Assembly (NCBI GenBank): GCA_018335035.1
Contig: JAGXKT010000022.1
Span: forward strand, 1-42,460
Direction: 5' to 3'
DNA length: 42,460 nt
Source of the DNA: Phycisphaerae bacterium
GTDB taxonomy: Bacteria; Planctomycetota; Phycisphaerae; SM23-33
In this document: piece by piece, positions 9,201-36,781 of the stretch
Layout: each line of letters starts with the position of its first letter
Position numbering within the stretch: position 1 is the stretch's first letter
Made by a program: the position numbers and the translations under genes
Notes under the pieces: model-generated
Databases searched by the model: none
What the model was told of the DNA's origin: nothing
What the model saw: the letters and a program-made list of their open reading frames with translations, nothing else

Positions 9201-9930
9201 CGGCGAGCTTGTCGTGCGGATCGTTGCACGCAACGGCTTCCAACTCGTCAACGTTGCGCCGCAACCTGTCGTCGGTCGTCAGGACCTCGAAAGCGCGCCG
9301 GCGCTCGGCGGCGAGCAGTTCCTTCCAGCGTGTCAGGGTCGCGGCGGGGCGCGCGTAGTCGCCGTAACGCCAGTCCGTACGGTGCGTCACGAGCCAGTCG
9401 ACGTTGTCGGCGACCCGCTTATAGGACAGCGCGGTCAACAACGTCAGCACGTCGTCGTCCCCGGCCTCGATGGCGGAGAGGACGGCCTCATCGGCGGCTT
9501 CAGCCGACAGGCGCGAGGTTAGCAGCGTGTCGGAGCAGACGGTGAAGGCGGGATCGAGCCCGGCCTCGACGGCGCGGGCTCGCAGCACGCCGGCGCAGAA
9601 GCTGTGGATGGTGGAAATCCGCGCCGCCGGCAACTCGTCCAGCCATGCGAGCAGGCGGCGACGGTCCGCGCCGGCCGCGCGATGCGCACGGTCTGTCAGG
9701 AAACGCCGCACGCGGTCGCGCATCTCCAGCGCCGCCTTATCCGTGAACGTCAGCGCCATGAAGCGTTTCAACGGATCGTCGGCGTCAGGACGGCCCAGCA
9801 GCAGTTCGGTGAAACGCCGGGCGAGCACGAAGGTCTTGCCGCAGCCGGCGCCGCTGCGCAACGCGAGGTTCTCCCCGAGCCGATCACGGGCGGCCGCACG
9901 CTGGGCATCAGTCAGTGGCCGCTCGCTCAT
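6253..9930 (-). CDS. addA: AddA-like helicase-nuclease subunit
   Basis: A 1225-residue UvrD/RecB-type (superfamily 1A) helicase fused to a PD-(D/E)XK nuclease, which with AddB resects double-strand breaks for recombination. Helicase motifs in order: Walker A SGAGCGKT (Lys32), ALTFTDKAALEMR, Walker B LLIDECQDTS, VVGDAKQSIYRFRGA, MTIHKAKGLEFPVVF and YVAATRAQDHL. Nuclease: GQIDLLYRD with the DYKS catalytic motif at about residue 1112. Cys975 (HCP) and Cys1205, 1210, 1213 and 1219 at the C-terminus form an iron-sulfur-nuclease-like set, unusual for AddA. The ATG at 9930 overlaps the addB stop (ATGA) and begins at the Q-motif region; the frame remains open upstream, but that is addB sequence in another frame. 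The family name is secure, the AddA-versus-RecB label less so. Confidence 0.88.
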   Translation of the reverse strand: MSERPLTDAQRAAARDRLGENLALRSGAGCGKTFVLARRFTELLLGRPDADDPLKRFMALTFTDKAALEMRDRVRRFLTDRAHRAAGADRRRLLAWLDELPAARISTIHSFCAGVLRARAVEAGLDPAFTVCSDTLLTSRLSAEAADEAVLSAIEAGDDDVLTLLTALSYKRVADNVDWLVTHRTDWRYGDYARPAATLTRWKELLAAERRRAFEVLTTDDRLRRNVDELEAVACNDPHDKLAVKRDAAIAAIRRLQGGLDAWTPETFEPIEAAAKPRNVGSKKAWGCDTKDVRAALKAVAEPVAALAHLAEALGDADTAAAEALATLTRLAIDAEARYAAEKRRRGIVDFTDLLAHTARLVADDAGVRRALSASIDQLLIDECQDTSAVQRDLLWGLLAPDAETVPADGRLFVVGDAKQSIYRFRGAQVEVFEELCERLGERHRETLDLSFRAHPACVAFVNELFAPLMGEAYAPLTAHRVEVPAEPAVDIVLATASEDYPLDDAATAGICQAAATAQRIAEMIAAGERRVWNAHTRDWRAVRPGDVAILLARMKHSGAYERELAARGVPYYVVGGTEFFRQQEVYDVLNALRAADNPYDDVAFLGALRSALFGLDDASLMRLADALDPPYLPALLAGDAPRPRIGDLSDPDARTLSFAVELLGRLARGKDALGPAAMIDLLLAETGYEGAVRAQFNGRRKLGNVRRLADLARTAAAEGTSLSRFLAAMNEQTLDQSRYEEAAVAGEGDDVVRLMTIHKAKGLEFPVVFVPDLNVAHKSPRNAILHRLDTGLTVKITGGDDDADMNGDAKRAAERDTALPLSYRIACDREDAAARAEDVRKLYVAATRAQDHLAFVAADRRTDDGSFHGGPGSPIGRLDAVLGIADAADAGRSIRYGHGQYTAAVRTLAPSAPPAPRRSATRGARWCVEAGGPDALAERMAEASADPPPLLGPIPPSVGHVDVAATALGDFEHCPMLYRWCYELRAPVAREADATGAPHGAAAQLDAATLGTVYHTCMELLDFENPQPAAALMRRALADENLTEIADTDALTAELDGMLTVLRDAPLWTELRGASEALRELDFALAAGPATVIGQIDLLYRDAGGDWHIVDYKSDRLDGANVAEHARRYETQMLAYATAAGRFLADGAAGEAPPVADATLYFLRTGQTHVIDLSGESLAAAEQRITTIAGQLVAARRAGRFARCDSAACGACRYRRLCGRDGAA

Positions 9931-12900
9931 GACGCGCCCTCCTCGCCGCGGCGTTTGCGCTCGGCGCGCCAGGGTGCGTAGTGGCACACCTGGCGATACG
10001 CGCACCAGCTCGGGCACTCGTGGGTTGGCAGGGCGTCGAACCGGCCATGGCGGATGCGCGCGACGAAGCGCGCCGCGGCCGCGAGGGCCTCCTCCCGCTG
10101 GGCCGCGTAGTCCTTGTTGCGTTGGTAGCCCGCGCCGCGGCGCGTGAGCGGCGCGAAGGTCCGCTCGTCCGGCGCGCCGGCGACACGGTGGAACGCGCCG
10201 CCGAGCGACGGCGCGTCCAGAAGCGTCTCGGCGGCCGCAGCGTACAGCGGAAGCTGCAAGCTCCGCCCGGCGGGAATGTCCTTGGCTTGCGGCAGCCGGC
10301 CCGTCTTGTAGTCGACGACGAACACGCCCTCGCGCCCGTCGATGCACACGCGATCGACACGGTCGATTCGCCCGCGGAGCTTCAGGGGCCCGTCCGGCGT
10401 CTCGACGACAACCGGCTCGTCGCGCTCGGCGTCGTCGCGCAGTTCCTCGACGCGCCGCTCACCGAGGCCGAAGCCCAGCTCAAAACGCACGCTGGCGGCG
10501 TTCAGCACGGCTGGCTGTGCGGCTTGGTGCAGGTAACGCGCGAGGTCGGCTGCCAAGGCGTCGCGTTGCACGCGCCACAGCTCCGGATACGGCGGGCGGC
10601 GCGCCCCGACGGCGGCATCCTCGGCGGCGACGGCGTCGGCCAGCACGGCGTCGATCCGCTCAGGGGGCAGCTCCGACAGACGGACCGGACCGTCCAGCGC
10701 ATCGCGCAGGGCCGTCATCGCCCGGTAGAGCACGTTGTGGCAGAATACGCCGCGCGCGACCGGCTCCAGGCGGCGCTGCGGCTCGGCAACCGGCTCCAGG
10801 CGGAGCACGTACGCCGCGAAGAACCGCCACGGGCACTGCCCGTAAGCGTTGAGCTGCGCGGCGGAGAAGACGGCATCGTTGCCATAGCGGCGTGCGAGCC
10901 GGGCCCGGAGGTCGCCGGCGGCGATGCGGCCGTCGTAGGCGTCGCAGGGCTCCGCGACGGCGCGGCGATGGAGCGTCCACAGCCCGCGGGCGGCGCGGGC
11001 GGGCGTGTGCGGTTCGTTGGCGGCCAGCCACGCCAGCGCGCCGTCGGTCGCGTCGTAGTCGGCGGCGAACGCCCCGGCCGCCGCGGCGACGCGCGCATCG
11101 CGGCGGCTGGCGAGTTCGTCTCGCGCGCACAGGAAATGACCGGGTCCGATCCGCTCGCTTCGCGCGGCGACGGCGGCCGCCTCAAGTCCGCGCCCGGTCG
11201 CGTCGTCGCCGACCGGCTGGACCAGGCGCCGCAGGAAGCTGCCTGGCGCGCCGGCGCGTCCGGTGGCGTCGGTGTCCATGTAGCTCAACGTCAGGTGCCG
11301 GTCGGCTCGCGAGACGGCGAGGTAGAACAGCAGCATCTCGCGGGCGTCGAGGTCGCGGCGGCTGTCGAGCACGACGCCGCGGTCCGCCCAGGCGTCGCGC
11401 TGCGGCTCGCTGAGCACGGCGCTGTCGACGAAGCCCCGCGGGAACTGCCCCTCCCCGCAGCCGAGCAGGAAGACGTGGTCGTACCGCAGCGGACGGGCGT
11501 CGAGCACATCAAGCACGTCCACCAGCGCCTCGGTTCGCGGGGGTGGTACGGATAGTGGCTCCAGCGCCTCGCGGACGTCGGCCGGGTCCGTGGCGCCGTC
11601 CAGCTCGCCGGCGGCGGCCTCCAGCGCCGACACCGCGCGCAGGTCGCGTGCGGCCAGGTCCGGGGAGGCCTGCTGCGCAGCGACGCGGCGCAGGCCCAGT
11701 GCGTCGATCACCGTGACCGGGCCGTCGCGCCGGGCCCGCTCGGCGACGTCGAACAACCGCTCCAGCATCGCCGCGGCGTTGTGGAACTGCTCGGCCGAGC
11801 CGCGGGCTGTGCGGGCGTCCTCGTCGTCATCCGCTGCGGATGCGGCGGCGCGGTCGGCCTGGCGGGCGAACCGGACGGCGGTCCGGCCGTAGGCGTCGCG
11901 CCCCTCGAGCACGTTGCCGTCGCGGATCAGCGTTTGGGCCGCGGCGACGGTGTCGGCGTTGAACCCGCCGAGCGCCTCGGGGCGGAAGTAGCTGCCTGCC
12001 AACACGCTCAACACGTCAGCGAACGCGAACGTCGGCGCCAGCGACGCGACATCCAGGGCGAAGCGGACGATCGGCTCGTCGGCGAGCGCGCACGGGGCGG
12101 CGGCGACGGGAATGTCGCACTCGCCGAAGATCCGCTCGATCGGCTCGCGGTACGCCGCCAGATCGCGTGCGATCACGGCGATCCGCTCGCCGGTGCCGCT
12201 CAGCAGCCGCCGCTTGATCCGTCGCGCCACGGCGGCGACCTCGGCATCGACCCCGGCGGCCGCGATGATGTCCAGCGCTTCCGGCATCGGCCGGGGCGCC
12301 GCATCGAAGTCGAACAGCGCGTCGACCAGCCCGCTCAGCAAGCCCGCCTTCCGGTCGTCCAATGCGATTTCGGACAGCCCGTCGCCGAACGTCCGCCGCA
12401 GGGCCGCCAACGTCCGCTCCGTCCAGTGCCACAGCCGCCCGCGTCCGTCCCGGGCGTGGGGGAGCGTGATGAGCAATCGCCGCAGCCGCGGCGCCAGCAG
12501 GGAGAGGATGGCCAACTGCGTCGGCGTGAAGTCCGTAAAGCCGTCCACGGCGACGGCCTCCACGCCGGACAGTGCGCCGAGACCCTCGCTCGCGCGAAGC
12601 CGCTCGCGTGCCTGCCATAGCTGCCCCTCGACGTCGTAGACACCGCCGGCCTGCATCGCCTGCTGGTAGCGGGCGTAGACAGTCGCCAGGTCGCGGCCCT
12701 TGCCGTCGTCGTCGGCGACGGCGCGGGCCAGGGCGTCCGGCTCGACGGCGGCGCGCTTCAACTCCGCGATGGCGCGGTCCAGCGCGGCGGTCATCCCCGG
12801 CGTGTCCGCCGCGGGCGCCAGAGCCGGCAGGTCGCCGGCGGTCGTGCCCTCGTCAACGATCCGTCGCAACAGACAGCGTCGGGCGACCGGCGACAGCAGC

Positions 12901-13193
12901 CGTGCGGCATCGTCGGCATCGGCAAGAATCGCCGCGCCCAACTGGGCGAACGTTCGGACGCCCGGGGCGACGACGACGCCGGCCGGCGCCTCGACCAGCA
13001 GGCGGCGGCGCAGATCGCGAGCGGCCGCGGCATTGGGGGCGATCAACAGGCAGGCCGGACGCCCGGTCCCCCCGACGAAATGCCGGTACAGATCGAGCGC
13101 GGCGGCGGTCTTGCCGCAGGCCGCCGGGCCGCGCAGCACCACCGCCGGTCCATTCGCGGTCAGAATCCGTTCGCGAAGGGCGTTCGAGTCCAT
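9927..13193 (-). CDS. addB: AddB-like helicase-nuclease subunit
   Basis: A 1088-residue partner of AddA. The N-terminal P-loop RGPAACGKT (Lys28) is intact; the middle resembles an inactivated UvrD-like helicase. A C-terminal PD-(D/E)XK nuclease shows GRIDRVDRV and VVDYKTGR, then SLQLPLYA. Cys787 (GQCPWRFF) with Cys1060, 1064 and 1070 (ECPSWCAYRQVC) matches the AddB 4Fe-4S staple that closes the nuclease domain. First gene of an addB-addA pair, overlapping the next by four bases. The ATG at 13193 begins the P-loop region; there is no Shine-Dalgarno sequence, and a -10 box ends six bases upstream. The 56-base leader gap also contains a GGGCGG-ACG-CCGCCC hairpin at 13231-13245. Confidence 0.88.
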   Translation of the reverse strand: MDSNALRERILTANGPAVVLRGPAACGKTAAALDLYRHFVGGTGRPACLLIAPNAAAARDLRRRLLVEAPAGVVVAPGVRTFAQLGAAILADADDAARLLSPVARRCLLRRIVDEGTTAGDLPALAPAADTPGMTAALDRAIAELKRAAVEPDALARAVADDDGKGRDLATVYARYQQAMQAGGVYDVEGQLWQARERLRASEGLGALSGVEAVAVDGFTDFTPTQLAILSLLAPRLRRLLITLPHARDGRGRLWHWTERTLAALRRTFGDGLSEIALDDRKAGLLSGLVDALFDFDAAPRPMPEALDIIAAAGVDAEVAAVARRIKRRLLSGTGERIAVIARDLAAYREPIERIFGECDIPVAAAPCALADEPIVRFALDVASLAPTFAFADVLSVLAGSYFRPEALGGFNADTVAAAQTLIRDGNVLEGRDAYGRTAVRFARQADRAAASAADDDEDARTARGSAEQFHNAAAMLERLFDVAERARRDGPVTVIDALGLRRVAAQQASPDLAARDLRAVSALEAAAGELDGATDPADVREALEPLSVPPPRTEALVDVLDVLDARPLRYDHVFLLGCGEGQFPRGFVDSAVLSEPQRDAWADRGVVLDSRRDLDAREMLLFYLAVSRADRHLTLSYMDTDATGRAGAPGSFLRRLVQPVGDDATGRGLEAAAVAARSERIGPGHFLCARDELASRRDARVAAAAGAFAADYDATDGALAWLAANEPHTPARAARGLWTLHRRAVAEPCDAYDGRIAAGDLRARLARRYGNDAVFSAAQLNAYGQCPWRFFAAYVLRLEPVAEPQRRLEPVARGVFCHNVLYRAMTALRDALDGPVRLSELPPERIDAVLADAVAAEDAAVGARRPPYPELWRVQRDALAADLARYLHQAAQPAVLNAASVRFELGFGLGERRVEELRDDAERDEPVVVETPDGPLKLRGRIDRVDRVCIDGREGVFVVDYKTGRLPQAKDIPAGRSLQLPLYAAAAETLLDAPSLGGAFHRVAGAPDERTFAPLTRRGAGYQRNKDYAAQREEALAAAARFVARIRHGRFDALPTHECPSWCAYRQVCHYAPWRAERKRRGEEGAS

Positions 13194-13199
13194 GCTCGC

Positions 13200-13228
13200 A
13201 TTGTGCCATCGGCCGCCGGCGGCGACAA
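13200..13228 (-). promoter_or_regulatory. Predicted promoter of addBA, leaderless geometry
   Basis: On the minus strand, TTGTCG (13228-13223), a 17-base spacer and CACAAT (13205-13200). The -10 ends six bases before the addB ATG, so transcription would begin at or next to the start codon. This suggests a leaderless mRNA and fits the lack of a Shine-Dalgarno sequence. Confidence 0.45.
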
Positions 13229-13249
13229 GCGGGCGGACGCCGCCCACCG

Positions 13250-14722
13250 CTACTCGCCGAGTGTCATCTCGACGACGTCGAAGTAGCCCAGCGTCGGCAG
13301 CATGTCGAAGAACGAGTCCGGGTCGCCGTTGCCCCCGGCCAGGGCGATCCGCGCCGCGTCGACGCCGTCGGCAAACGCCGCGTCCAGCCCCACCCAGGTC
13401 TCGCCGATCAGGACACGGCACCAGGCGTGCGGAATCAGCACGTGCTCACGCCCGCCGAAGCGCGGCACGTAGACGACGCCGCTGACGACCTCCGCCGGCA
13501 TACCCGCGGCGCGGCACAGCCCGGCGGTCAGCACCGCATGCTCCGTGCAGTCGCCCTCGCGTGCTTCGGCCACCTCCGCCGCCGAGGCGTACCCAACGGA
13601 CAGGGTCTTCGCCTTGATGTGCGTTCGCACGAACGTCTCGATACGCCGCGCGGCCTCAGCCGCGTCCGTCGCGTCGCCGACGGCCTCACGTGACAGGGCC
13701 ACTACGGTCTCGGCGTCCGACTCGACGTACTGCGACGGCTTCAACGCCGCCTGTGCGCGTTCGCCGTCGCCGTCATAGCCCGGCGCGACGCCGTCCGGCG
13801 CGGCAACCGGACGCACCGTGACGACCACGGCTCCGTCGTCGCGCGTCTCGATCCGCTGGCTGTCCGTCTCGGGAAGCGCCAGTTTCCGCTTGCCGCTCGG
13901 CCGCAGGCGGAAGGTGACCGCGCCGGCGGAGCGAGGATCGTCGTCGGGCTCCGGGCAGGCGACCGTTACGCGTTTGAGCAGGTCGGGCGGGTTGTCGGCG
14001 GCGAGGGCGACGGGCTTCGGGCAGGCGACCATGACCATGTTCATGCCCAACGCCGGCACGGTCGCCTTCAGCGACGTGAAGCTTTCGTCGACGTAGCGGA
14101 CGGTCGTGATCTTGCCGAACTGCGTCTGTCGTGTGGCGGTGACCTCCGTCAGTTCGACGACGCGGCCGAACAGGTCGAGCGTCTTCTTCTCGCCGACGTG
14201 AAAGCTCACCTCGCGGGCGGCGCTTGCGGAGATGTCAAAGATGCTGGCGGTGTAGGTCGTACCGGGCTTGAGCCCTTTGCGCTGTTGGAGTTGCCGAAGC
14301 CCCTCGCTGAGCAGGGCGCCTTCGGGCCAGGCCATCGTGCGCGTGGTCTTCCGTCCGCCGTGCGTGGCGGTCAGCGTCAATTGCCCGTCGCGGATGCGGC
14401 CTTCGGTGGTCGTCGCCAGGATGCCGAGGTCCTGCGACACGCGGAAGGACAGCGGCTCGCCGTCCGGCGTCTCGATGACCGTTTCGGCGATGCGGATCTT
14501 CAGGCGAGTCCCGGAGCGGATCACCGTCATCGTCACGTCAGCCGTCGAGGTGACCTTGCCGTCGGCGACGGTCCGCGTCTGCTTCCTGTAGCCGACCTTG
14601 GCGTCGTCCATCATCACGGCGTACCAGAGGGCGTCCGGCGGCGTCGCGCCGTCGGCCGGGGCGGCGCCGGCGGCCAGCAGCGCCGTGGCGAGCAGGGCGG
14701 TTCGGCTCGTTCGTGCGGTCAT
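13250..14722 (-). CDS. Secreted transglutaminase-like protein
   Basis: A 490-residue protein with an N-terminal signal peptide (TALLATALLAAGAAPADGA). A long N-terminal beta-rich region (about residues 30-330) has alternating strands resembling the DUF3857-like part that often precedes transglutaminase domains. The C-terminal transglutaminase-like fold carries the expected triad: Cys392 in EGDCTEHA, His432 in IPHAW and Asp447 in GLDAAF. Such bacterial proteins are proteases, amidases or crosslinkers of the cell envelope; the substrate is unknown. AGGAGA lies about six bases before the ATG. It sits upstream of addB in the same direction, but addB appears to have its own promoter. Confidence 0.8.
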   Translation of the reverse strand: MTARTSRTALLATALLAAGAAPADGATPPDALWYAVMMDDAKVGYRKQTRTVADGKVTSTADVTMTVIRSGTRLKIRIAETVIETPDGEPLSFRVSQDLGILATTTEGRIRDGQLTLTATHGGRKTTRTMAWPEGALLSEGLRQLQQRKGLKPGTTYTASIFDISASAAREVSFHVGEKKTLDLFGRVVELTEVTATRQTQFGKITTVRYVDESFTSLKATVPALGMNMVMVACPKPVALAADNPPDLLKRVTVACPEPDDDPRSAGAVTFRLRPSGKRKLALPETDSQRIETRDDGAVVVTVRPVAAPDGVAPGYDGDGERAQAALKPSQYVESDAETVVALSREAVGDATDAAEAARRIETFVRTHIKAKTLSVGYASAAEVAEAREGDCTEHAVLTAGLCRAAGMPAEVVSGVVYVPRFGGREHVLIPHAWCRVLIGETWVGLDAAFADGVDAARIALAGGNGDPDSFFDMLPTLGYFDVVEMTLGE

Positions 14723-17385: not shown

Positions 17386-19143
17386 TTACGGAGCGGGCGA
17401 CTCGGCGGGGTTCGACGGGAACTGGATACGGAAGTACCGCGCGTACTGCCCGTCCCGGTCGAGCAATTCGGCGTGCGTGCCGTTCTCGACGATCCGCCCG
17501 TGGTCGACGAAGAATATCTGATCGGCGCGGAAGATCGTGCTGAGCCGGTGGGCGATGGCGAACGTCGTCCGCCCCCGGCGGAGGCGCTCCATCGCCCGCT
17601 GGATGAGTCGCTCGGTCTCCGGGTCCACCGAGCTTGTCGCCTCATCCAGCAGCAGGATCTTCGGGTTTTTCAGCAGGGCTCGCGCGATCGACAGTCGCTG
17701 ACGCTGGCCCTCCGAGAGCTTCACGCCCCGCTTGCCGATGACGGTGTCGTACCCGTCCGGCATCTGCTCGACGAACGGGGCGGCGTTGGCCATCTTGGCC
17801 ACCTCGATGATCTGCTCGCGCGTCGCCTCGGGCAGGGCGTAGCCGATGTTCTCGGCCACCGTGCCGGAGAACAGGAAGTCGTCCTGCATGACCATGCCGA
17901 TGTGCGACCGAAGCGAGCGCAGCGCGACGTGGCGCACGTCGTGTCCGTCGATCAGCACGCGCCCGTCAAACGGCTCGTAGAATCGGGGGATCAGGCGCGT
18001 GACGGTGGTTTTGCCCGCGCCGCTGGGCCCGACGAGGGCGACCATTTGCCCCGGCTCGGCCGTGAAGCTGACACCGTCGAGGATGACCTCGCGGTCGTAG
18101 CGGAAGCGGACGTTGTCGAACTGGACGCGTCCCTCGCAGCGCCGGAGCATGACCGGCTCGGGCGTGTCGCGAATGTCCGGCTCGATGTCCATGTACTCCC
18201 AGAAGCGCTCCAGCGACGCGAAGAACCGCCCGGCGTGCTCCAGCATCATCACCAGCCGCATGATTGGATGCAGAAAATGACCCAGGAGAAATATAAACGC
18301 CGTCAGTGTTCCGACAGAAATCTCGCCGGCGACGGCCAGGTATCCGCCGTAGAACACGACGATCGCCAGGCCGAGGTTGTTGATGAACAGCGCCCCGGGA
18401 AACAGCCGGCACATGTAGCGGATGACGGACATGCGGCTGTGGTAGTGGTTCGTGTTCTCGCCGGCGACGACCTCGAACTCGCGGTCCTCGCTGCCGAAGG
18501 CCTTGATGACCTGAATGCCGCTGAGATTCTCCTCCAGCACGTCGGAGAGGGATTCCTTTCGCTTGCGGACCTCGCGGAACTGCTCCCACATCCGTCCGGC
18601 GACGCGGACGACGAACACCGCCAGCAGCGGCACCATGGCCAGCACCGCCAGCGCCAGCTTCCAGTTCAGAACGAACATCAGCACGGTCGTGCCGCTGACC
18701 ATCACGATTGCCAGCAGGACCGCCTCGGGCCCGTGGTGGGTCACCTCCTGGACCACGTTGATGTCGTCGACGAGGCGCGACAGCAGCCCGCCGGCCTTGC
18801 TGCGGTCGTGGAAGCTCATCGAGAGCTTCTGGAAGTGCCCGTACAGGTCGTTCCGCAGACGCGACGTGATGCTCTGAGCGACCTCGTGGCCCCAGTATTC
18901 CTTGAACGCCGCCAGGAAGAAAAACACGACGAACACGCCCACGACCGCGCCGGCCGACATCGCCAGCAGCCCGACATCGCGCGCCGGAACGGCCACGTCG
19001 ATCAGGTGGCGCACGATCATCGGCGGGACAAGAAACAACAGAATCGCCAGCACATGCATGACCTGCACGGCGGAGAACATCCCCGCACGGGGACGGACGT
19101 ACACGCGGGCGAAACGCCGCAGGGATTCGCTGTTACGGCTCAT
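17386..19143 (-). CDS. ABC exporter half-transporter, MsbA/MdlB-like
   Basis: A 585-residue type IV-fold ABC half-exporter. The N-terminal membrane domain (about residues 20-310) has around six helices; the C-terminal ATPase has Walker A GPSGAGKTT, the signature LSEGQRQRLSIARALL, Walker B ILLLDEATSSVDPETE and the switch histidine AIAHRLST. The signature reads LSEGQ rather than LSGGQ, a tolerated variant. It is divergent from kdsD-kdsC and an LptC-like gene, which makes lipid A-core flipping (MsbA role) a reasonable but unproven guess; multidrug export is the alternative. The start MSRNSE at 19143 is chosen; an in-frame ATG ten codons upstream would add MVPQAGVEPT. Confidence 0.85.
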   Translation of the reverse strand: MSRNSESLRRFARVYVRPRAGMFSAVQVMHVLAILLFLVPPMIVRHLIDVAVPARDVGLLAMSAGAVVGVFVVFFFLAAFKEYWGHEVAQSITSRLRNDLYGHFQKLSMSFHDRSKAGGLLSRLVDDINVVQEVTHHGPEAVLLAIVMVSGTTVLMFVLNWKLALAVLAMVPLLAVFVVRVAGRMWEQFREVRKRKESLSDVLEENLSGIQVIKAFGSEDREFEVVAGENTNHYHSRMSVIRYMCRLFPGALFINNLGLAIVVFYGGYLAVAGEISVGTLTAFIFLLGHFLHPIMRLVMMLEHAGRFFASLERFWEYMDIEPDIRDTPEPVMLRRCEGRVQFDNVRFRYDREVILDGVSFTAEPGQMVALVGPSGAGKTTVTRLIPRFYEPFDGRVLIDGHDVRHVALRSLRSHIGMVMQDDFLFSGTVAENIGYALPEATREQIIEVAKMANAAPFVEQMPDGYDTVIGKRGVKLSEGQRQRLSIARALLKNPKILLLDEATSSVDPETERLIQRAMERLRRGRTTFAIAHRLSTIFRADQIFFVDHGRIVENGTHAELLDRDGQYARYFRIQFPSNPAESPAP

Positions 19144-19260
19144 CGTTGGTTCGACTCCGGCTTGTGGTACCATGCAGACCGGGCAGGGGGCGCTGCGAAT
19201 CGCCCCAGTGTACCGCATGAATCGTCGCCGCGGGGAAAATCCCTGCCACGACGGCCGCAC

Positions 19261-19289
19261 TTGACCACCCGGCGCGGCGCGGGCATAAT
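19261..19289 (+). promoter_or_regulatory. Strong predicted promoter of the kds operon
   Basis: TTGACC 19261-19266, a 17-base spacer and CATAAT 19284-19289. This is the best sigma70-like match in the window. The -10 ends six bases before an ATG at 19296 that opens a ten-codon ORF, not before the kdsD start at 19325. Confidence 0.6.
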
Positions 19290-19295
19290 GCCGCG

Positions 19296-19328
19296 ATGGA
19301 CCCGGTGGACACCGCGAGCGGCCAATGA
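19296..19328 (+). CDS. Possible ten-codon leader peptide upstream of kdsD
   Basis: ATG at 19296 followed by nine codons (MDPVDTASGQ) and a TGA at 19326-19328 that overlaps the kdsD start codon as ATGA. The ATG lies six bases after the -10 box, so it would be at or near the 5' end of the mRNA. The kdsD ATG itself has only a weak Shine-Dalgarno sequence. The arrangement suggests leaderless initiation followed by re-initiation on kdsD. Nothing in the peptide indicates attenuation. It could be chance. Confidence 0.35.
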   Translation: MDPVDTASGQ

Positions 19329-20326
19329 ACGCGGACAAAGTCGATCTTAACCTGGCCCGTCAGACGCTCAAGCTCGAAGGGCAGACGGTGGCCGCGCTGG
19401 CCGAGACGCTGGGCGAGGCGTTCGCTTGTGCGGCGCGGGACGTGTACGCCTGCCCCGGGACGACGATCCTGACGGGCATCGGCAAGGCGGGCATCGTCGC
19501 CCGGAAGGTTTCCGGCACGCTGGCGTCGACCGGAACGCCGAGCATTTATCTCCATCCCGTCGAGGCGTTGCACGGCGATCTCGGGCGGGTGCATCGCGAC
19601 GACGTTGTCATCGCGCTGTCCCACAGCGGCGCGTCGGAGGAGATCATCCGCCTGGTCGACCACATCAAGGCGCGCGGGGCGAAGCTGATCGCGCTGACCG
19701 GCTCGCAGGCGTCGCCCCTCGGGCGGCACGCGGACGTGTGCCTCTGTTACGGGGACGTCGATGAGGCCTGCCCGCTGGGCCTGGCGCCGACCGTCTCGAC
19801 CACGTGCATGCTTGCCGTTGGCGACGCGTTGGCGCTGACGGTGATGCAGATGCGGCGGTTCAGCCCGGACGACTACGCCGCGTTCCACCCCGGCGGCTCG
19901 CTCGGGCGGAAGCTGATGAAGGTCGAGCAGACGATGACCGCCCGCCGGGGCGAGCGGCTTTGCCCGGTTCGCGACACGCTGTCGCTCGGCGAGGCCCTCG
20001 CCGCCGCGGAGAAGGCCACCCGACGCGCCGGCGCCATGCTGCTGGTCGACGGCGACGGGCGGTTGACCGGAATCCTGACCGACGCGGACCTGCGCCGGCT
20101 GCTGGTGACCTCCAACGGCGACGTGCGGTCCGTGCCCGTCGCCGAGTGCATGACGCGCGACCCGAAACACGTTCACCTGGGCGACCTGGCCAGCGAGGCG
20201 CTGGCGATCTTCAACGAGTACCGCATCGACGAGTTGCCCGTCCTGGACGAGGAACATCGCCCCGTCGGCGTGATCGACGTGCAGGACGTCCTCGGGATCA
20301 AGACGGTGAATCATGTCCGCGACTGA
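19325..20326 (+). CDS. kdsD: D-arabinose 5-phosphate isomerase
   Basis: Converts ribulose 5-phosphate to arabinose 5-phosphate, the precursor of KDO in LPS. The 333-residue protein has an N-terminal SIS domain (about residues 45-175) with TGIGKAG, ALSHSGASEE and the conserved HPGGSLGR, followed by two CBS domains (about residues 205-330) ending in GVIDVQDVLG. This is the KpsF/KdsD/GutQ architecture; KdsD is favoured because kdsC follows with a 14-base overlap. Confidence 0.93.
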   Translation: MNADKVDLNLARQTLKLEGQTVAALAETLGEAFACAARDVYACPGTTILTGIGKAGIVARKVSGTLASTGTPSIYLHPVEALHGDLGRVHRDDVVIALSHSGASEEIIRLVDHIKARGAKLIALTGSQASPLGRHADVCLCYGDVDEACPLGLAPTVSTTCMLAVGDALALTVMQMRRFSPDDYAAFHPGGSLGRKLMKVEQTMTARRGERLCPVRDTLSLGEALAAAEKATRRAGAMLLVDGDGRLTGILTDADLRRLLVTSNGDVRSVPVAECMTRDPKHVHLGDLASEALAIFNEYRIDELPVLDEEHRPVGVIDVQDVLGIKTVNHVRD

Positions 20327-20849
20327 CCCGGCCGACATCACGGTGCTCGTGCTGGACGTCGACGGCGTGTTGACCGACGGCCGGGTCACGTACACGGCCG
20401 GCGGCGACGAACTCCACGCCTTCAGCGCTCGCGACGGGGCGGGCATGAAATACTGGAAGCGCGCCGGCGGGCGGTTGGCGCTGATCAGCGGGCGCGGCTC
20501 GCCCGCGGTCGAGCGCCGCGCCGCCGAACTCGACGTCGACGCCGTGCGGTTGCAGGCCAAGGACAAGGACGCGGCCTTCGAAGAGGTCCTGTGCGAGCTG
20601 GACGTTCCGGCCGAGCGGGTCGCCGTCGTGTGCGACGACCTGACGGATATTCCGATGCTTCGGCGATGCGGGTATCCGGTCGCCGTCGCCGATGCCGTGG
20701 AGGAGGTCCGGTCCCGCGCGGCGTACGTGACGCGCGCCTGCGGCGGGGACGGCTGCGTCCGCGAGGTGATCGAGCTGCTTCTGAAGGCCTCCGGGCGATG
20801 GGGGCGGATTCTGGAGCGGTATCTGCCGGATGGGGAGGCATACGCGTGA
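20313..20849 (+). CDS. kdsC: 3-deoxy-D-manno-octulosonate 8-phosphate phosphatase
   Basis: A HAD-family phosphatase releasing KDO from KDO 8-phosphate. The 178-residue protein shows the nucleophile motif VLDVDGVLTDG (Asp15, Asp17), ISGRGS as motif II, a conserved lysine region (AKDKDAAF) and CDDLTDIPML as motif III/IV. Its length matches the capless C0-type KdsC. It overlaps kdsD by 14 bases and the next gene by GTGA, so the three genes are translated as one operon. Confidence 0.92.
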   Translation: MSATDPADITVLVLDVDGVLTDGRVTYTAGGDELHAFSARDGAGMKYWKRAGGRLALISGRGSPAVERRAAELDVDAVRLQAKDKDAAFEEVLCELDVPAERVAVVCDDLTDIPMLRRCGYPVAVADAVEEVRSRAAYVTRACGGDGCVREVIELLLKASGRWGRILERYLPDGEAYA

Positions 20850-23800
20850 AACGCCGCGTGTTGCTGCTTGTCGGAACGTTTGGCGCGCTTCTGGCGGCCT
20901 TGTTGGCCTACCAGGTCGTGGTGCGGTACGACATCGTCCGGCCGGATGAGACGCCCGGGCTGCGCGACGGGCCGCAGCACGCCGCGCCGGCCGGCGCAGA
21001 CGACGTCGGACAGCTCGAACCGCGCCACGGCGAAGGGCTGGACATCACGTTGGGGCAGGACGAGCCGGTCGGGCGGCGGTTTCAGTGCGATCGCTATGAG
21101 AAGGACGGCAAGTACGGGTATGACCTGGGCAACCCGAAGCTGACGTTCTTCTTCGCTGACGGGCAGGTTGCGACCATCCGGGCGGACCGCGGGTACGGGC
21201 GCTTCGCCGGGTCCATCATGGAGGTGGATTTCCAGGAACTGCGCCTCTCGCAGAACGTGGTACTGACGCTGGACCGCGGCAAATCGCCTCTGCAGGCGCC
21301 GCTCGACCAGCGCCCCGCCGACCGCGTCGTCATGCGCATGGACAGCGTCCTGTTCGACCGTCATCTGCTGCGGATCGAGACGAACAGTCGCGTGGAGCTG
21401 CACGCGGCCGAGGGCGACGTCTATGGGCGCGGCATGGAGGCCACCTGGACGGAGAATCCGCGCCAACTCAAGCTGTTGCGCATTGTCGAGGGCGAGCGAA
21501 TTGTCCTGCACGACGTTCCCGAGGGGATGGACATGTTCGCGCTGCCCGGCGCTGAGGCGACGTCGTCGGATTCGCGAACGCCCGAGGCGGCGGACGAACC
21601 GGATGCGCCGGACCCGCCCCGGGCGGCGCGAACCGCGCCCGCCGAGCCGCCTGCAACGCGCCCCGAGCAGGGCGACGCGCCCGACAACGTCTATCGCATC
21701 GAGCTGTTTGATGCCGTTCGGGTGATGTCTGCCGACGGGCGCATGGACGGTGCCGACAGCTTGGCCGTCCGCGTCGAGTGGGATCGGTCCATGCTGGGCG
21801 AGGACGAGGCGCCGTCCGATGCGCCTCGAGAAGCGCAGCCGCCCGCCGACGCGACGCGCCCCGCGACGCGCCCGGCGACACGCAAGCAGAACGCGGTTAT
21901 CCGCTGGAAGGGGAACCTGGTCATTCGTCCCGTGGGCTGGACGCCTTCGCCGTCGTCGGATCGCTACACGGCCGCGGCGCGGGGCGCGCCTCTACGCTTG
22001 ACGGACGGGCAAACCAGGGCGACCTGTCAGTCGTTTGCGTACTGGCAGGACGCGGCGCCGGACGGGACGGGGCGTCGCCAGCGCGGGCAACTGACCGGTA
22101 CGGCCGACGAACCCGCCACGCTGAGACTGGACGACGGATCGCGCGTCGAATGCGCAGTCATGCGATACGATCGGCTGGCGGCGCGCGCCGAACTGCAAGG
22201 GGCGGGGCGCATGACGCGACGGGGCGCCGCGCTGTTCGACGGCGAGGGCGCCGAGGCGGACGGCGAGGACAAGCCCCAACAGATCGCGTGGCGCGACTCG
22301 GGCATGTTGGTGCTTGCCGATCGCTCGGAAGCGGACGGGGGCACCGGCTTGGAACGGGTCGAGCGGGCCTTGTTCCGCGGGGAGGTGCGCCTCAGGCAGG
22401 GCGAAGGCGACGAGGCCGAGTTCGTCCACTGCGACGAGCTGCGCCTGCGGCGGGCCCCGCCGCCGCACCGACGTCATCGCCAGGCCGAAGCGATCGGAAA
22501 CGTGCACGTCCGAGCCATGGGGCTGGATGCGCATGCGCGACGCGGGCTGTTGACCGCCGAGCCCAAGGACGAGCCAAGCGGCGAATCCGGCCTGGAGGTG
22601 ACGCGCATCGAGATGCACGGGGACGTGCGGAGCAGGACGATCGAGACGGACGAACCGGTCACGGCGACAGGCGACCGCGTGGTGGCCGACGTGCGACAGC
22701 GCAATGCCGTCCTTTACGGCGACAAGGCGCCGACGGGCTGGGCGGAGCTGCGCCAGGGGGCGAGTCGCCTCCGGGGCGAGCAGCTTCGCTTCTACCTGGT
22801 TGCCGATCCACGCGGCGACGGCAACGAAGTGGAGGTTCGCTCCAAGGGCCCGGGGGCACTGGATTTCGTGACGCGGCGCGGCTTCGGCGGTCAGGATCTG
22901 TCCGAGCCGCGTGCCATTCGCGTCACCTGGGCCAAGAGCATGAACTACCAGGGCCCGCGGGACGTGGCGGAATTCGTCGGCGACGTGACGCTCGACAGCG
23001 GCCCGGACCACGTAACCGCGGAGGCGATGCGCGTGCGCTTCCGGCGCACGGAAGACGACAAGACCGAAGCCCCCGCGCCCTCGCGCGAAGAGGACGCCGA
23101 TGCATTGCCCGTGGCGCTGAGCATGGAGGATTTCTCGTCCAAGCGGATCCGCATGATTCGCGCTCAAGGCGCCGACCCGAAAGACCGGAACGTGCTGTGG
23201 GTCCGCCGGGAGGTGGACGATGACGGCAAGCTGCTGCGCCGCGTGCAGCTTCGCAGCACGGATTTCCACTACGATGTCGATCTGGCCCGCGCGATCATCA
23301 CGAGTTGGGGAAAGGCCATCGTGGAAGACTACCGCGCGCCGAAGCCCGCCGACACTACCGACGAGGACGGCGAGGCGCTGGGCGGCATGCGACTGCAGCG
23401 CCCCTCGCAGAGCGTGCTGGAGTGGCAACCGGCCGAGCGGACGCCCGGCGAGCCGGTCGCCGGGCCGGCCTGCTACATGGAATTGCTTCAGAAACAGCGC
23501 CAGGCGACGGTCCAGGGCGACGTGACGGTGCGGCACCGAAGCGGACGCAAAATGGTTCGGCGCGCGGCCTTGCCGGATGGACGATGGGAGACGCTGCCGC
23601 CCGGCCAGGCCTTCGATCTTCGTTGCGGGCGTGCCGTGGTCTGGTTCGCCGAACCGGACGACGATGACGATGCCGCCGACGGCGGCGACGGCCTGCAGAT
23701 CGGGCCGCTCAAGCGCTTCAGCGCCACGCGCCGCGTCAATATGCGGTACGCGCCCTGGCAGGTGCTCGGCGAGCGCGTGTGGTACGACCGCAGCAGGGAC

Positions 23801-23971
23801 ATCGTCACGGCGCAGGGCTTCCGACCCGGGCAGCCGCCCGCCGACGCTCAGATCATCTACGAGGACCCCGAGACCGGACGCTCGCAGACGTGGTCAAATC
23901 CCAAGCTCACCCTGTTTCCGGGAAAGCAGCAGGTCCTTTCCGAGGACGCCTCGGCCACGGGCGGACGGTGA
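20846..23971 (+). CDS. Giant LptC/LptA (OstA-like) periplasmic protein
   Basis: A 1041-residue protein with one N-terminal membrane anchor (VLLLVGTFGALLAALLAYQV) and no further helices, so it should project into the periplasm. An LptC-like part near residues 75-150 is followed by an acidic, proline-rich linker (about 230-290) and many short beta-strand units of the OstA/LptA type, marked by G-[END]-V motifs at Gly512, 551, 592, 712 and 891 (RGEVRL, IGNVHV, HGDVRS, VGDVTL, QGDVTV), each followed by strands such as RGEQLRFY and TAEAMRVRF. LptC and LptA are each about 190 residues. The position directly after kdsD-kdsC is where lptC-lptA lie in enterobacteria. A GTG start is supported by GGGGAGG seven bases upstream. 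I infer an LPS-transport bridge; no LptB is adjacent. Confidence 0.7.
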   Translation: MKRRVLLLVGTFGALLAALLAYQVVVRYDIVRPDETPGLRDGPQHAAPAGADDVGQLEPRHGEGLDITLGQDEPVGRRFQCDRYEKDGKYGYDLGNPKLTFFFADGQVATIRADRGYGRFAGSIMEVDFQELRLSQNVVLTLDRGKSPLQAPLDQRPADRVVMRMDSVLFDRHLLRIETNSRVELHAAEGDVYGRGMEATWTENPRQLKLLRIVEGERIVLHDVPEGMDMFALPGAEATSSDSRTPEAADEPDAPDPPRAARTAPAEPPATRPEQGDAPDNVYRIELFDAVRVMSADGRMDGADSLAVRVEWDRSMLGEDEAPSDAPREAQPPADATRPATRPATRKQNAVIRWKGNLVIRPVGWTPSPSSDRYTAAARGAPLRLTDGQTRATCQSFAYWQDAAPDGTGRRQRGQLTGTADEPATLRLDDGSRVECAVMRYDRLAARAELQGAGRMTRRGAALFDGEGAEADGEDKPQQIAWRDSGMLVLADRSEADGGTGLERVERALFRGEVRLRQGEGDEAEFVHCDELRLRRAPPPHRRHRQAEAIGNVHVRAMGLDAHARRGLLTAEPKDEPSGESGLEVTRIEMHGDVRSRTIETDEPVTATGDRVVADVRQRNAVLYGDKAPTGWAELRQGASRLRGEQLRFYLVADPRGDGNEVEVRSKGPGALDFVTRRGFGGQDLSEPRAIRVTWAKSMNYQGPRDVAEFVGDVTLDSGPDHVTAEAMRVRFRRTEDDKTEAPAPSREEDADALPVALSMEDFSSKRIRMIRAQGADPKDRNVLWVRREVDDDGKLLRRVQLRSTDFHYDVDLARAIITSWGKAIVEDYRAPKPADTTDEDGEALGGMRLQRPSQSVLEWQPAERTPGEPVAGPACYMELLQKQRQATVQGDVTVRHRSGRKMVRRAALPDGRWETLPPGQAFDLRCGRAVVWFAEPDDDDDAADGGDGLQIGPLKRFSATRRVNMRYAPWQVLGERVWYDRSRDIVTAQGFRPGQPPADAQIIYEDPETGRSQTWSNPKLTLFPGKQQVLSEDASATGGR

Positions 23972-30672: not shown

Positions 30673-31896
30673 CTATTCCTTGACCAAGCTGGAGAGCTTG
30701 AAGATCGGCAGGATGATGCTCATGGCGATGAAGCCCACCAACGCACCCATCAGGACGATCATGAGCGGCTCGATCATGGCCGTGACCGACTTGATCGTGC
30801 TCTTGAGCTCTTTGCCGTAGAACTCCGAGATGTCCTGGAGGACGTCGCCGAGATTACCGGATTCCTCCCCGGCGGCGATCATCTGGACGACGTTCGTGGG
30901 CAGCAGGTTTTGACGCCAGAGAGGTTCGGCGATTTTGTTGCCCTGCTCGACGGCGTCGCGCACGCGTGTCCACATCCGTCTGTAGACCACGTTGCCGCTG
31001 ACGTCGGCGGTGATGTCGAGCGTCTCGAGCATCGGCACACCGGCCGAGATCAGCTCGCCCATCGTGTGCAGCCCGCGGGTGATGTACAGCGCCCGCAGCA
31101 TGCGTCGAAACAGCGGAATTTGCAGTTTCGCGCGGTCCCAGTACTCCCGCCCGACGCGCGTGCGAATGGCCTGGAAGAAGCCCACGCCCAACGCCGCGAC
31201 GCCGATCAGCAGCACGTACCAGTAATTGCGCATGAAGTCGCTCAATGCCATCAGCGCCAGTGTCGGCGTCGGCAGCAGCGCCTCTTTCGAGGCGAACAGC
31301 TTGGTGAACTGCGGCAGAACGAACGTCAGCAGAAAAACCGTGGTCACCACAGCCATCACGGCGATGATGGCGGGGTAGATCATCGCGCCGCGGACCATGC
31401 GGCGCGTCTCGATCTGCTGGTCCAGGTAGTCGGCGATGCGTTCGAGCATGTGCCCGAAGCTGCCCGACATCTCCGAGGCGCGGACCATGTTCACGTACAG
31501 CGGTCCGAAGACCTTCGGGTGCTTCTCCAGGGCTTCGGAAAACGGCTGGCCGGACTCGACGTCGTCCTTGATCTGGTTGACGATCTTTTGGAACTTGAGG
31601 TTTTCGAGCTGGTCGGCGACGCCGCCCAGTGCGGCGCGGATGTTGATGCCGGCCTTGATCATCACCCCGAGCTGATTCGTGAAGTTGTAGACGTCCTTGA
31701 GCCCCGGGCCGGACTGGATGTTGACGCTGTGCAGGGCGTCGAGGATGTTCTGGGCAGTTCCGGCCGGGGCGACGTTAAGCACGAACCCGCCCTGGTCGCG
31801 CAGCGCGGCCGTGGCGTCCTCGACCGATTGGGCGTCGATCACGCCGGACGAGATGCGTCCGCTTGTCTCGCGAAGTTCGTACTTGAAGCTTGCCAT
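30673..31896 (-). CDS. pilC: Type IV pilus / type II secretion platform protein
   Basis: Inner-membrane platform protein of the GspF/PilC family, which couples the cytoplasmic ATPases to pilin movement. The 407-residue length is standard. Two GspF domains are seen: the first with FTNQLGVMIKAGINIRAALGG and ESGQPFSEALEKHPKVF, the second with LHTMGELISAGVPMLETL and AAGEESGNLGDVLQDISEFY. Three hydrophobic segments lie near residues 165-195, 215-235 and 375-400. It follows pilT after 95 bases. Confidence 0.93.
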   Translation of the reverse strand: MASFKYELRETSGRISSGVIDAQSVEDATAALRDQGGFVLNVAPAGTAQNILDALHSVNIQSGPGLKDVYNFTNQLGVMIKAGINIRAALGGVADQLENLKFQKIVNQIKDDVESGQPFSEALEKHPKVFGPLYVNMVRASEMSGSFGHMLERIADYLDQQIETRRMVRGAMIYPAIIAVMAVVTTVFLLTFVLPQFTKLFASKEALLPTPTLALMALSDFMRNYWYVLLIGVAALGVGFFQAIRTRVGREYWDRAKLQIPLFRRMLRALYITRGLHTMGELISAGVPMLETLDITADVSGNVVYRRMWTRVRDAVEQGNKIAEPLWRQNLLPTNVVQMIAAGEESGNLGDVLQDISEFYGKELKSTIKSVTAMIEPLMIVLMGALVGFIAMSIILPIFKLSSLVKE

Positions 31897-31991
31897 CGTT
31901 TTCTCTCGGCTTACGCAACGCGGACGGCGCGTCCCGCGGCCACGGCAATCACTTTGCGTTCACTGCGCTGCCTGCGTTGGATGTTATCTTG

Positions 31992-33056
31992 TCATGCGGC
32001 GCGGATGGCCCGGCTGAGCGAGTCGGGGTGGACCGCGCGCGACAGGGCCTGCTCCTCGCTGATCAGCCCGTTGAGGAACAGCGCCTTGATCGATTCGTCG
32101 AGCGTCTGCATGCCGCTGCGGCGGTTCGTGGCGATGATGTTCGGAATCTCGTGAACACGGTTTTCACGGATGCAACTACGTACAGCCGACGTGCAGAGCA
32201 TCACCTCGCAGGCCGGGACCATGCCCGGCACGTCCTGGCGCTTGAACAGCACCATCGAGACCACGGCCTGAAGGGTGTTCGACAGCATCGAGCGGATCTG
32301 GTTCTGCTGTTCGGCGGGGTAGATGTCGACGATTCGCTCGATCGTCTGCGAGGCGTTCTGCGTGTGCAGCGTGGACAGCACGAGGTGCCCGGTCTCGGCG
32401 GCGGTGATGGCGGCCGAGGTCGTCTCCAGGTCGCGCATCTCGCCGACGAGGAGGATGTCCGGGTCCTGTCGCAGGGCGTGCCGCAGGCCGCTGGCGAACG
32501 CCGGCACGTCGCTGCCCAGCTCACGCTGCTCGATAACGCACAAGTTGTTGCGCAGCTCGTACTCGATCGGGTCTTCCACCGTGATGACGTGGTAGCGGTA
32601 CTTCTGGTTCATCGCGTCGATCAGCGACGCCAGCGTGGTGGACTTGCCGCTGCCGGTCTGCCCGGTGACCAGCACCAGCCCGCGCGGCAGATCGACGAAC
32701 CGCTCGATCGCCGGCGGCAGGTTCAGCTCCGCCAGTGGCGGCACGCGGTCGGGGATGGCGCGGAACGCCACGGCCAGCGTGTCACGCTGGTAGTGGGCGT
32801 TGACGCGGAATCGCCCCAGCCCGCCCACCTCGATCGAAAAGTCGTGATCGCGCAGCTCAACGAGCTTGGCGTAACGCTTCTCGCCGAGGACCTCCTTGCA
32901 GAAGGCCTCGATGTCCTCGGCGGCCAGGGCGTCATAGCCCTCGGCCGGTTCCAGGACGGTATGCACGCGGAACAGCGGGGGGATCCCGGCCAGCAGATGG
33001 ACGTCGCTGGCTTCCGTGGTCAGCGCCTTGGTCAGGAGCTGCTGTATCTCGATCAT
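31992..33056 (-). CDS. pilT: Twitching-motility retraction ATPase
   Basis: Hexameric ATPase that disassembles and retracts type IV pili. The 354-residue protein has Walker A GQTGSGKST (Lys138), an ITVEDPIEYE Asp box, Walker B DPDILLVGEMRD and the His box GHLVLSTLHTQNA. The C-terminal retraction motif AIRNLIRE appears as AVRSCIRE. Presence of a PilT favours a retractile type IV pilus over a pure type II secretion system. The start overlaps the pilB stop by ATGA. Confidence 0.93.
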   Translation of the reverse strand: MIEIQQLLTKALTTEASDVHLLAGIPPLFRVHTVLEPAEGYDALAAEDIEAFCKEVLGEKRYAKLVELRDHDFSIEVGGLGRFRVNAHYQRDTLAVAFRAIPDRVPPLAELNLPPAIERFVDLPRGLVLVTGQTGSGKSTTLASLIDAMNQKYRYHVITVEDPIEYELRNNLCVIEQRELGSDVPAFASGLRHALRQDPDILLVGEMRDLETTSAAITAAETGHLVLSTLHTQNASQTIERIVDIYPAEQQNQIRSMLSNTLQAVVSMVLFKRQDVPGMVPACEVMLCTSAVRSCIRENRVHEIPNIIATNRRSGMQTLDESIKALFLNGLISEEQALSRAVHPDSLSRAIRAA

Positions 33057-34849
33057 GCTTCGGTCTCCGTGACGCGCATCAACTCCTCAACGGTCGTCAG
33101 GCCGTGGCGGATCTTCTCAAGTCCGTCCTCGCGGAGGGTGCGCATTTTGTGCTCGCGGCTGGCTTGCTTGAGGGCGCCAAGCGACGGATTCGTCGCGACG
33201 ACCTCGCGAATGGCCTCGTCGATTTCGAGAAGTTCGTAAAGCCCCAGGCGCCCCTTGTAGCCCGTTTGCCGGCATCGCCCGCAACCGGCGCCCTTGTAGA
33301 GTTGATCGGCTTCCATGCCGTACCGCTTGAGGTACGCTGCTTCCGTTTCGCTGACATCCGTGACGGCCTGCTTGCAGTGCTCGCAGGTACGCCGCACCAG
33401 GCGCTGGGCGACCACGGCGTTGACCGAGGCACTGATGAGATACGGCTCGATGCCGATGTCGATCAGCCGCGTGATGCTGCTCGGCGCGTCGTTCGTGTGC
33501 AGCGTGGACAGCACAAGGTGCCCCGTCAGCGACGCCTGCACCGCGATGCGGGCCGTGTCCTGGTCGCGAATCTCGCCGACCATGATGATATCCGGGTCCT
33601 GTCGCAACAGGGACCGCAGGGCGGCTGCGAAGCTCATGCCGATCGACTCGTGCACGTTGACCTGGTTGATGGTATCCAGCTCGTACTCGACCGGGTCCTC
33701 GACCGTGGAGATGTTCAGTGTCTTGGCGTCCATGACCTGCAGGGCGGAATAGAGCGTGGTGGACTTGCCGCTTCCGGTGGGGCCCGTCACGAGCACGACG
33801 CCGTGGGGCTGGAAGATCTGCCGTCGAAACGCCTTCAGCGTGTCCGCCGCCATCCCGAGGTTCTCCAGCCCGACGGAGATGGAGCGATTGTCCAGAATTC
33901 GGATGACGCACTTCTCGCCGTGCGTGGTCGGCAACGTACTGACACGCAGGTCCACCGTGCGCCCGTGGACGGTCGCGCGAATCCGCCCATCCTGGGGCAG
34001 GCGGCGCTCGGCGATGTCCAGGTTGGCCATGATCTTCAGCCGCGAGACGACCGCCGCGTGCATCGACAGCGGGGGGGGCTGCTGCTCGAAGAGCACGCCA
34101 TCGATGCGACAGCGAATGCTCAACCGGCGCTCCCGCGGCTCGATATGGATATCGCTGGCGCCGTCCTTGACCGCAGAGGAAACAAGGAAGTTCACGTACC
34201 GGATGACCGGGCTCTCACCGGCGATCCGCTCGAGGTCGGTCACCTCCTCGCCGCCGCTGTCGACCACCTCGACGGCGTCCTCGGCGATGTCCTTGATGAT
34301 CTCCTCGACCTGTTGGCTCGGTCCGGCCGAGAGTTCCTCGACGGCCTGGAGAATGTCCTGCCCCGGCGTGACCACGAGTTGGATGTTCGCCCCGATGCGA
34401 CGCTTGAGGTCGTCGACAAGGAAGATATCGGCCGGGTCGCGCAACGCGACGATCACGTCCTCATTGTCACGCCGCAGGGGGAGTGCAAGATTGGACTTGA
34501 TGTAGTCGGGCGGGAGCAACTGGAAGATGTCGGGGTCCACGTCGCCCGGCGTGACGCGCTCGAAGGGCAGCAGGAAGTACTCCGCCACGGCGTTCAGGGC
34601 GTCCGTCTCGGCGATGCTGCCGTCCTGGACGAGGGCCTCGAGGACGCTGAGCTTAGGGTTGTCGGCCTGGGCCTGGACGGCGCGGTCGATTTGGGCACGC
34701 GTGACCTGTCCGGACTCCAGCAGGACGCGCTCCGGGCCACGCGGATGCGAGCCGGCATCGTCCGGACGCCAGAGCTCGTCGAATTCCGCGGGCTCGGCGT
34801 ATGCGCCCTCCGGCGCGTCCTCCGGTTTGTTGCGGAGCTTGTCCGCCAC
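33053..34849 (-). CDS. pilB: Type IV pilus assembly / secretion ATPase
   Basis: Extension ATPase of the PilB/GspE family, 598 residues. An N-terminal MshEN-type domain (about residues 40-170) precedes the ATPase core with Walker A GPTGSGKST (Lys362), STVEDPVEYE, DPDIIMVGEIRD and HLVLSTLHTND. A zinc site is seen as CEHC (Cys489, 492) and CGRC (Cys523, 526). A run of eight identical bases (34071-34078) codes for three prolines and is a possible slippage site. It begins 14 bases after the PilP-like gene and overlaps pilT by four bases. MshEN domains can bind cyclic di-GMP, so such control is possible. Confidence 0.93.
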   Translation of the reverse strand: MADKLRNKPEDAPEGAYAEPAEFDELWRPDDAGSHPRGPERVLLESGQVTRAQIDRAVQAQADNPKLSVLEALVQDGSIAETDALNAVAEYFLLPFERVTPGDVDPDIFQLLPPDYIKSNLALPLRRDNEDVIVALRDPADIFLVDDLKRRIGANIQLVVTPGQDILQAVEELSAGPSQQVEEIIKDIAEDAVEVVDSGGEEVTDLERIAGESPVIRYVNFLVSSAVKDGASDIHIEPRERRLSIRCRIDGVLFEQQPPPLSMHAAVVSRLKIMANLDIAERRLPQDGRIRATVHGRTVDLRVSTLPTTHGEKCVIRILDNRSISVGLENLGMAADTLKAFRRQIFQPHGVVLVTGPTGSGKSTTLYSALQVMDAKTLNISTVEDPVEYELDTINQVNVHESIGMSFAAALRSLLRQDPDIIMVGEIRDQDTARIAVQASLTGHLVLSTLHTNDAPSSITRLIDIGIEPYLISASVNAVVAQRLVRRTCEHCKQAVTDVSETEAAYLKRYGMEADQLYKGAGCGRCRQTGYKGRLGLYELLEIDEAIREVVATNPSLGALKQASREHKMRTLREDGLEKIRHGLTTVEELMRVTETEA

Positions 34850-34863
34850 CGTTTGCTACTTCC

Positions 34864-36772: not shown

Positions 36773-36781
36773 GGTGGTTCC

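Follow-up and report, generated by a model that had tools for sequence, protein, structure and literature searches.

A single long gene in the stretch of DNA analysed here, a 42,460-nt contig (JAGXKT010000022.1, hereafter the window) of the Phycisphaerae bacterium assembly GCA_018335035.1, very probably encodes a natural LptC–LptA(n) fusion, i.e. a covalent bridge of the lipopolysaccharide (LPS) transport (Lpt) system with a gene-determined module number. An initial annotation of the window had pointed out a long LptC/LptA-like open reading frame (ORF) behind kdsD and kdsC, and this observation is confirmed in its coordinates, its overlap and the identity of both upstream genes. The ORF (20846–23971, plus strand) translates into 1041 aa from a GTG start without internal stop; the GTG lies inside the kdsC stop codon, giving a GTGA overlap between the two genes, and a ribosome-binding-like GGGGAGG is located upstream of it.

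An AlphaFold2 model built from a 41-sequence alignment (mean predicted local distance difference test (pLDDT) score 80.6, predicted template modelling (pTM) score 0.64) revealed a transmembrane helix at residues 2–26, followed by an all-beta chain with strands from residue 63 to 1038 and low-confidence linkers at 27–60, 240–275, 320–343, 461–474, 494–503 and 838–847. Structural alignment matched residues 59–222 to LptC of the LptBFGC complex (6mit_C; Z 11.2, root-mean-square deviation (rmsd) 3.3, 135 residues aligned) and residues 602–789 to LptA (2r1a_C; Z 15.2, rmsd 2.5, 130 residues aligned). Solved LptD structures were also among the matches, and non-Lpt rows reached Z scores of at most 7.8. 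When Vibrio LptC was aligned including its transmembrane helix, residues 1–214 gave a Z of 10.9 but an rmsd of 21, with the helix placement unmatched. The predicted protein thus shares with LptC the single N-terminal transmembrane helix and the LptC-type jellyroll behind it, and with LptA the beta-jellyroll fold, but differs from LptA, a soluble periplasmic protein of one module that forms head-to-tail oligomers, in that its modules are covalently joined behind the anchor. Dividing residues 282–1038, less linkers, by the ~130 residues of an LptA suggests about five LptA-sized units. The features of the chain and of the genes before it are:

20846–23971, plus strand: probable LptC–LptA(n) fusion protein, 1041 aa (ORF, predicted fold, profiles)
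20849–20923, plus strand: N-terminal transmembrane helix, residues 2–26, sole membrane anchor (model and hydrophobicity)
21023–21520, plus strand: LptC-like jellyroll module, residues 60–225 (structural match to 6mit_C; TIGR04409 below its cut-off)
21521–21685, plus strand: disordered acidic/proline-rich linker, residues 226–280 (model and composition)
21689–23959, plus strand: tandem LptA-like beta region, residues 282–1038, with an estimated five or so LptA-sized units and short linkers (model, structural alignment, repeats)
22331–22795, plus strand: Pfam PF03968 (LptA/LptD_N) match, residues 496–650 (32.6 bits, cut-off 20.4)
22649–23212, plus strand: best structural match to LptA, residues 602–789 (2r1a_C, Z 15.2)
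20313–20849, plus strand: kdsC, 3-deoxy-D-manno-octulosonate (Kdo)-8-phosphate phosphatase, a haloacid dehalogenase (HAD) hydrolase (domain profile; GTGA overlap with the next gene)
19325–20326, plus strand: kdsD, arabinose-5-phosphate isomerase of the Kdo pathway, SIS and CBS domains (domain profiles)
19261–19289, plus strand: sigma-70-like promoter match just 5′ of kdsD (10/12 positions; consensus match only)

Sequence profiles place the same families in the same order. The protein exceeds the gathering cut-off of PF03968, and its sub-threshold LptC match (TIGR04409, residues 92–203, E-value 1.1e-4) and LptA match lie in the correct order. Among the 41 aligned homologues, PF03968 matched 36, the LptC family PF06835 21, the LptA model TIGR03002 33 and TIGR04409 31 members, the LptC match being N-terminal of the LptA match in every homologue where both could be located. 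The family profile alone, searched against the PDB, found LptD and LptA chains (E-values of 2e-4 and weaker). Non-overlapping slices of the alignment also matched one another at 93–97% HHalign probability (345–460 with 600–740, 476–600 with 655–790, 476–600 with 850–1038, 600–740 with 760–900, and 655–790 with 850–1038), as compared to a maximum of 17.6% in reversed-profile controls (n = 81), which argues that the chain beyond the LptC part consists of repeated LptA-like modules.

The identity of the family as LptC plus tandem LptA is settled by a relative from another planctomycete class. This 660-aa protein (L165), likewise encoded after kdsD–kdsC, passes in one chain the curated cut-offs of both TIGR04409 (LptC; 72.8 bits, cut-off 38) and TIGR03002 (LptA; 80.9 bits, cut-off 71.7); a further homologue, L166, also passes the LptC model (45.6 vs. 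38). The L165 model (pLDDT 78.7, pTM 0.69) shows a transmembrane helix, an LptC module (56–199) and three modules with a common strand pattern (239–365, 384–511 and 527–650), and aligned with LptC at Z 13.9 (rmsd 2.3) and with LptA at Z 12.2 (rmsd 2.0). As MORN-repeat proteins reached a similar score (Z 12.9), it is the sequence and not the Z score alone that identifies its repeat region. The LptC module of L165 aligned with residues 60–225 of the fusion family (97.3%), and for its LptA modules the values against later slices reached 96.6%. Predicted structure, family profiles, controlled repeats and L165 together support what had been proposed initially, namely a single protein in which an LptC-like N-terminal part is followed by several LptA-like units. 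The tandem jellyrolls whose absence would have spoken against this proposal are present in the model.

The sequence details given with that proposal held up as well. A single anchor had been claimed, and indeed the most hydrophobic 19-residue window begins near residue 8 (Kyte–Doolittle score 2.08), with no window above 1.6 beyond residue 40. The five G-[END]-V turns were found exactly where described (Gly512, 551, 592, 712 and 891), together with a sixth at Gly190; 2000 shuffled sequences contained a mean of 1.2 such triplets, and six were reached in 0.1% of them. The linkers, which coincide with the low-confidence stretches of the model, are acidic throughout (Asp plus Glu 18–38%), proline-rich in most cases (0–21%) and also rich in alanine, and the whole protein is acidic (predicted isoelectric point 5.4). 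A plain odd/even hydrophobicity test of the strands was not significant. Allowing for a kink in long strands gave an alternation of z 6.2, a value expected of any beta protein and hence no proof of a groove.

The fusion occurs class-wide, with related fusions across the phylum, and is no peculiarity of one genome. Matches were found in 45 of 60 relatives, and 30 of the 41 aligned homologues have an intact N-terminus, with lengths of 1040–1283 residues and low sequence conservation. One homologue (L084:6459–10143), in a contig of a metagenome-assembled genome, is split into two frames of 143 and 1075 aa, probably by an assembly frameshift. In 33 loci of the class, kdsC lies directly upstream of the fusion gene; as exceptions, L058 has kdsD adjacent and L054 and L067 have neither gene in the retrieved stretch, while the remaining loci end at contig or stretch edges. 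In a phylum-wide sample, 45 of 119 genomes carried a match, and kdsC or kdsD was adjacent in 30 of 40 loci. The frames beside kdsC/kdsD form a length series of 350–445 (six), 582–664 (five), 793–883 (four) and 994–1232 residues (17); the values refer to frames, whose starts were in some cases not trimmed. A kdsD–kdsC–fusion–lptD cluster, with lptD right behind the fusion gene, occurs in two other planctomycete genomes (L181, 4519–10000; L191, 1658–6996). At a further locus (L077:4217–13999), lptF–lptG are located ~2.4 kb past kdsD and are oriented divergently to the kds–fusion cluster.

Separate genes are found in other phyla, with the order kdsD–kdsC–(acyltransferase-like gene)–lptC–lptA–lptB in Goldiibacteriota and kdsD–lptC–lptA–lptB in an Elusimicrobiota metagenome-assembled genome. 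By this comparison, one long gene holds the lptC–lptA place and lptB has moved away. Among the shortest members of the length series are two-module frames of 350–437 aa (L167, L168 and L183) whose N-termini resemble a cleavable signal peptide, and two genomes with a short form (G068 and G153) additionally hold a separate LptA-like protein of ~170–190 aa (L202 and L201). Such short forms may mark a transition from separate genes to long fusions.

The rest of an Lpt system is present in the genome, as judged from profile searches of its contigs, on which all genome-wide statements rest. LptB (336.8 bits, cut-off 240) is encoded away from the fusion locus, and lptF and lptG are adjacent to each other elsewhere, with a kdsB-like gene nearby. 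LptD is a 956-aa protein with a signal-peptide-like start (L133; G000:C20:30439–33231) that scored 1091 bits with a profile of the relatives' LptD. Neither PF04453 (LptD) nor PF19838 (LptD_2) found an LptD in the genome; since the relatives' profile does, this is a failure of sensitivity, and standard models tend to miss LptD in planctomycetes. PF06835 (LptC) found no match in the genome, PF03968 and the fusion-family profile each found only the fusion protein, and local checks next to lptB, lptFG and lptD revealed no stand-alone LptA or LptC. In line with the initial proposal, LptB, D, F and G are thus present and no conventional lptC–lptA–lptB set was detected. The same holds for the relatives: each of 28 genomes with a PF03968 match has exactly one, which is the fusion protein in 27 and lies in a 1192-residue frame in the 28th (G046).

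Several points weigh against a complete single-chain bridge. The profile search bore out the claimed family membership for PF03968 and not for the curated models, as the protein itself stays below the cut-offs of both TIGR04409 (21.7 bits vs. 38) and TIGR03002 (21.5 vs. 71.7). The genome is a draft (2.74 Mb, 97% complete, 82 contigs), and PF03968 missed the N-terminal domain of its own LptD; given this limited sensitivity, a separate LptA might go unnoticed if it is strongly diverged. Furthermore, disordered linkers break up the beta chain, so that the groove may be discontinuous, and the overall pTM of 0.64 makes the relative placement of distant modules uncertain. These points leave some room, albeit at rather low probability, for another reading, in which the protein is an elongated LptC and the bridge is completed only by an overlooked separate LptA or by self-association. 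Precedent for this exists in the short two-module proteins after kdsC that coexist with a separate LptA-like protein (L168 with L202, L183 with L201). However, the family profile that detected those separate LptA proteins in G068 and G153 found none here, the relatives hold one PF03968 match per genome, and about five LptA-sized units appear to lie within the fusion chain already.

In a covalent LptC–LptA(n) bridge, residues 1–225, comprising the N-terminal helix and the first jellyroll, would occupy the place of LptC on LptB2FG, which would push LPS onto this part. The LptA-like modules would then extend the hydrophobic trough across the periplasm within one chain, and the C-terminal module would dock on the LptD jellyroll. 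If the groove is continuous and one molecule spans the periplasm, LPS would slide along a covalently continuous track, and the gene, not LptA oligomerisation, would determine module count and bridge length. Beta-sheet geometry (16 strands per LptA, 4.8 Å per strand, two sheets) suggests ~4 nm per module, which would give LptC with some five modules a reach of ~23 nm. One may speculate that a bridge of fixed length works only where the membranes lie at the right distance. In planctomycetes, the periplasm can be greatly enlarged and vary in extent, and crateriform pits always touch the cell membrane (PMC5394234). A broader proposal, to which we give slightly less than even credence, is that throughout Planctomycetota the whole bridge is one chain in which LptC is followed by LptA modules whose number differs between lineages (~1 to ~5 or more), the gene acting as an inter-membrane ruler and LPS export being confined to periplasm of matching width.

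A bridge of the same fold might instead carry another lipid, as a phospholipid conduit similar to TamB, YhdP or LetB; we regard this as very improbable. For phospholipids, long single-chain hydrophobic conduits are known. They include the transenvelope MlaD of Veillonella parvula (PMC10665443), which resembles the fusion in replacing the separate inner, shuttle and outer parts of E. coli by one envelope-spanning chain, if the fusion indeed spans the periplasm, but which is an MCE hexamer of unrelated fold with phospholipid cargo and its own outer-membrane barrel. TamB, YhdP and YdbH of the AsmA-like group share with the fusion the very long single-chain beta conduit and the inner-membrane anchor, and probably differ in family and cargo. 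Profile and fold matches of the fusion protein are to LptC, LptA and LptD_N rather than to AsmA/TamB or MCE families; no AsmA/TamB match was obtained in the Pfam and NCBIfam scans, although lack of a match does not exclude kinship. The gene follows kdsD–kdsC, lies beside lptD in two relatives and a few kilobases from lptF–lptG in one. A TamB-like conduit was rejected on these Lpt-type matches and this gene neighbourhood. That the ORF is an artefact of read-through, mis-assembly or a chance open frame, as GC-rich windows yield in large numbers, is refuted by the comparative data (30 homologues of 1040–1283 aa with intact anchor, shared synteny across the class and a confident fold) and hardly merits any weight. 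An LptD fragment was considered and likewise rejected. The N-terminal jellyroll of LptD (PF03968) belongs to the same fold family, whereas the fusion has an inner-membrane anchor and no outer-membrane barrel, and a separate LptD is encoded in the genome.

Compared to proteobacterial LptC and LptA (kdsD–kdsC–lptC–lptA–lptB), the planctomycete LptC–LptA(n) fusion agrees in genomic place, predicted jellyroll folds, their order and the anchor on the LptC part, and differs in being one gene and one chain, in its approximately five covalent LptA-sized units, in its acidic/proline-rich linkers and in the location of lptB elsewhere. Lego bricks have served as a comparison for the jellyrolls of Lpt proteins, and the number of LptA molecules per E. 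coli bridge is stated as unknown (PMC10094684 for the number; PMC5575297 for both). E. coli survives the loss of LptC with LptF suppressors (PMC9972910). A 2012 survey of planctomycete genomes reported LptD and BamA and left LptA and LptC unmentioned (PMC3422733), and a survey of outer-membrane genes characterised planctomycetes as having a largely reduced Lpt system (PMC8871954), which a divergent, fused LptC–LptA would help to explain. Searches of open-access papers yielded no description of an LptC–LptA fusion, subscription papers and preprints lying outside the search; in domain databases, such proteins are probably annotated with both domains already. Within that literature, the evidence supports an unreported form of a known Lpt system. 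With modules counted by the gene, one protein per bridge and an envelope spacing that can be imaged, the question of LptA number would become measurable, and the length series across the phylum would permit comparing bridge length with periplasm width. The seven-part Lpt scheme would then not be universal, in parallel to transenvelope MlaD for phospholipids.

Elsewhere in the window, an MsbA-like ABC exporter with membrane and ATPase domains (17386–19338, minus strand) is divergently oriented relative to the kdsD–kdsC–fusion operon and is a candidate for the lipid A flippase. An AddAB-type pair (6253–13421, minus strand) consists of two large genes that overlap and carry UvrD helicase and PD-(D/E)XK nuclease domains, and a type IV pilus/type II secretion cluster (30673–37864, minus strand) comprises a PilC-like T2SSF protein, two T2SSE ATPases (PilT/PilB-like) and PilM.

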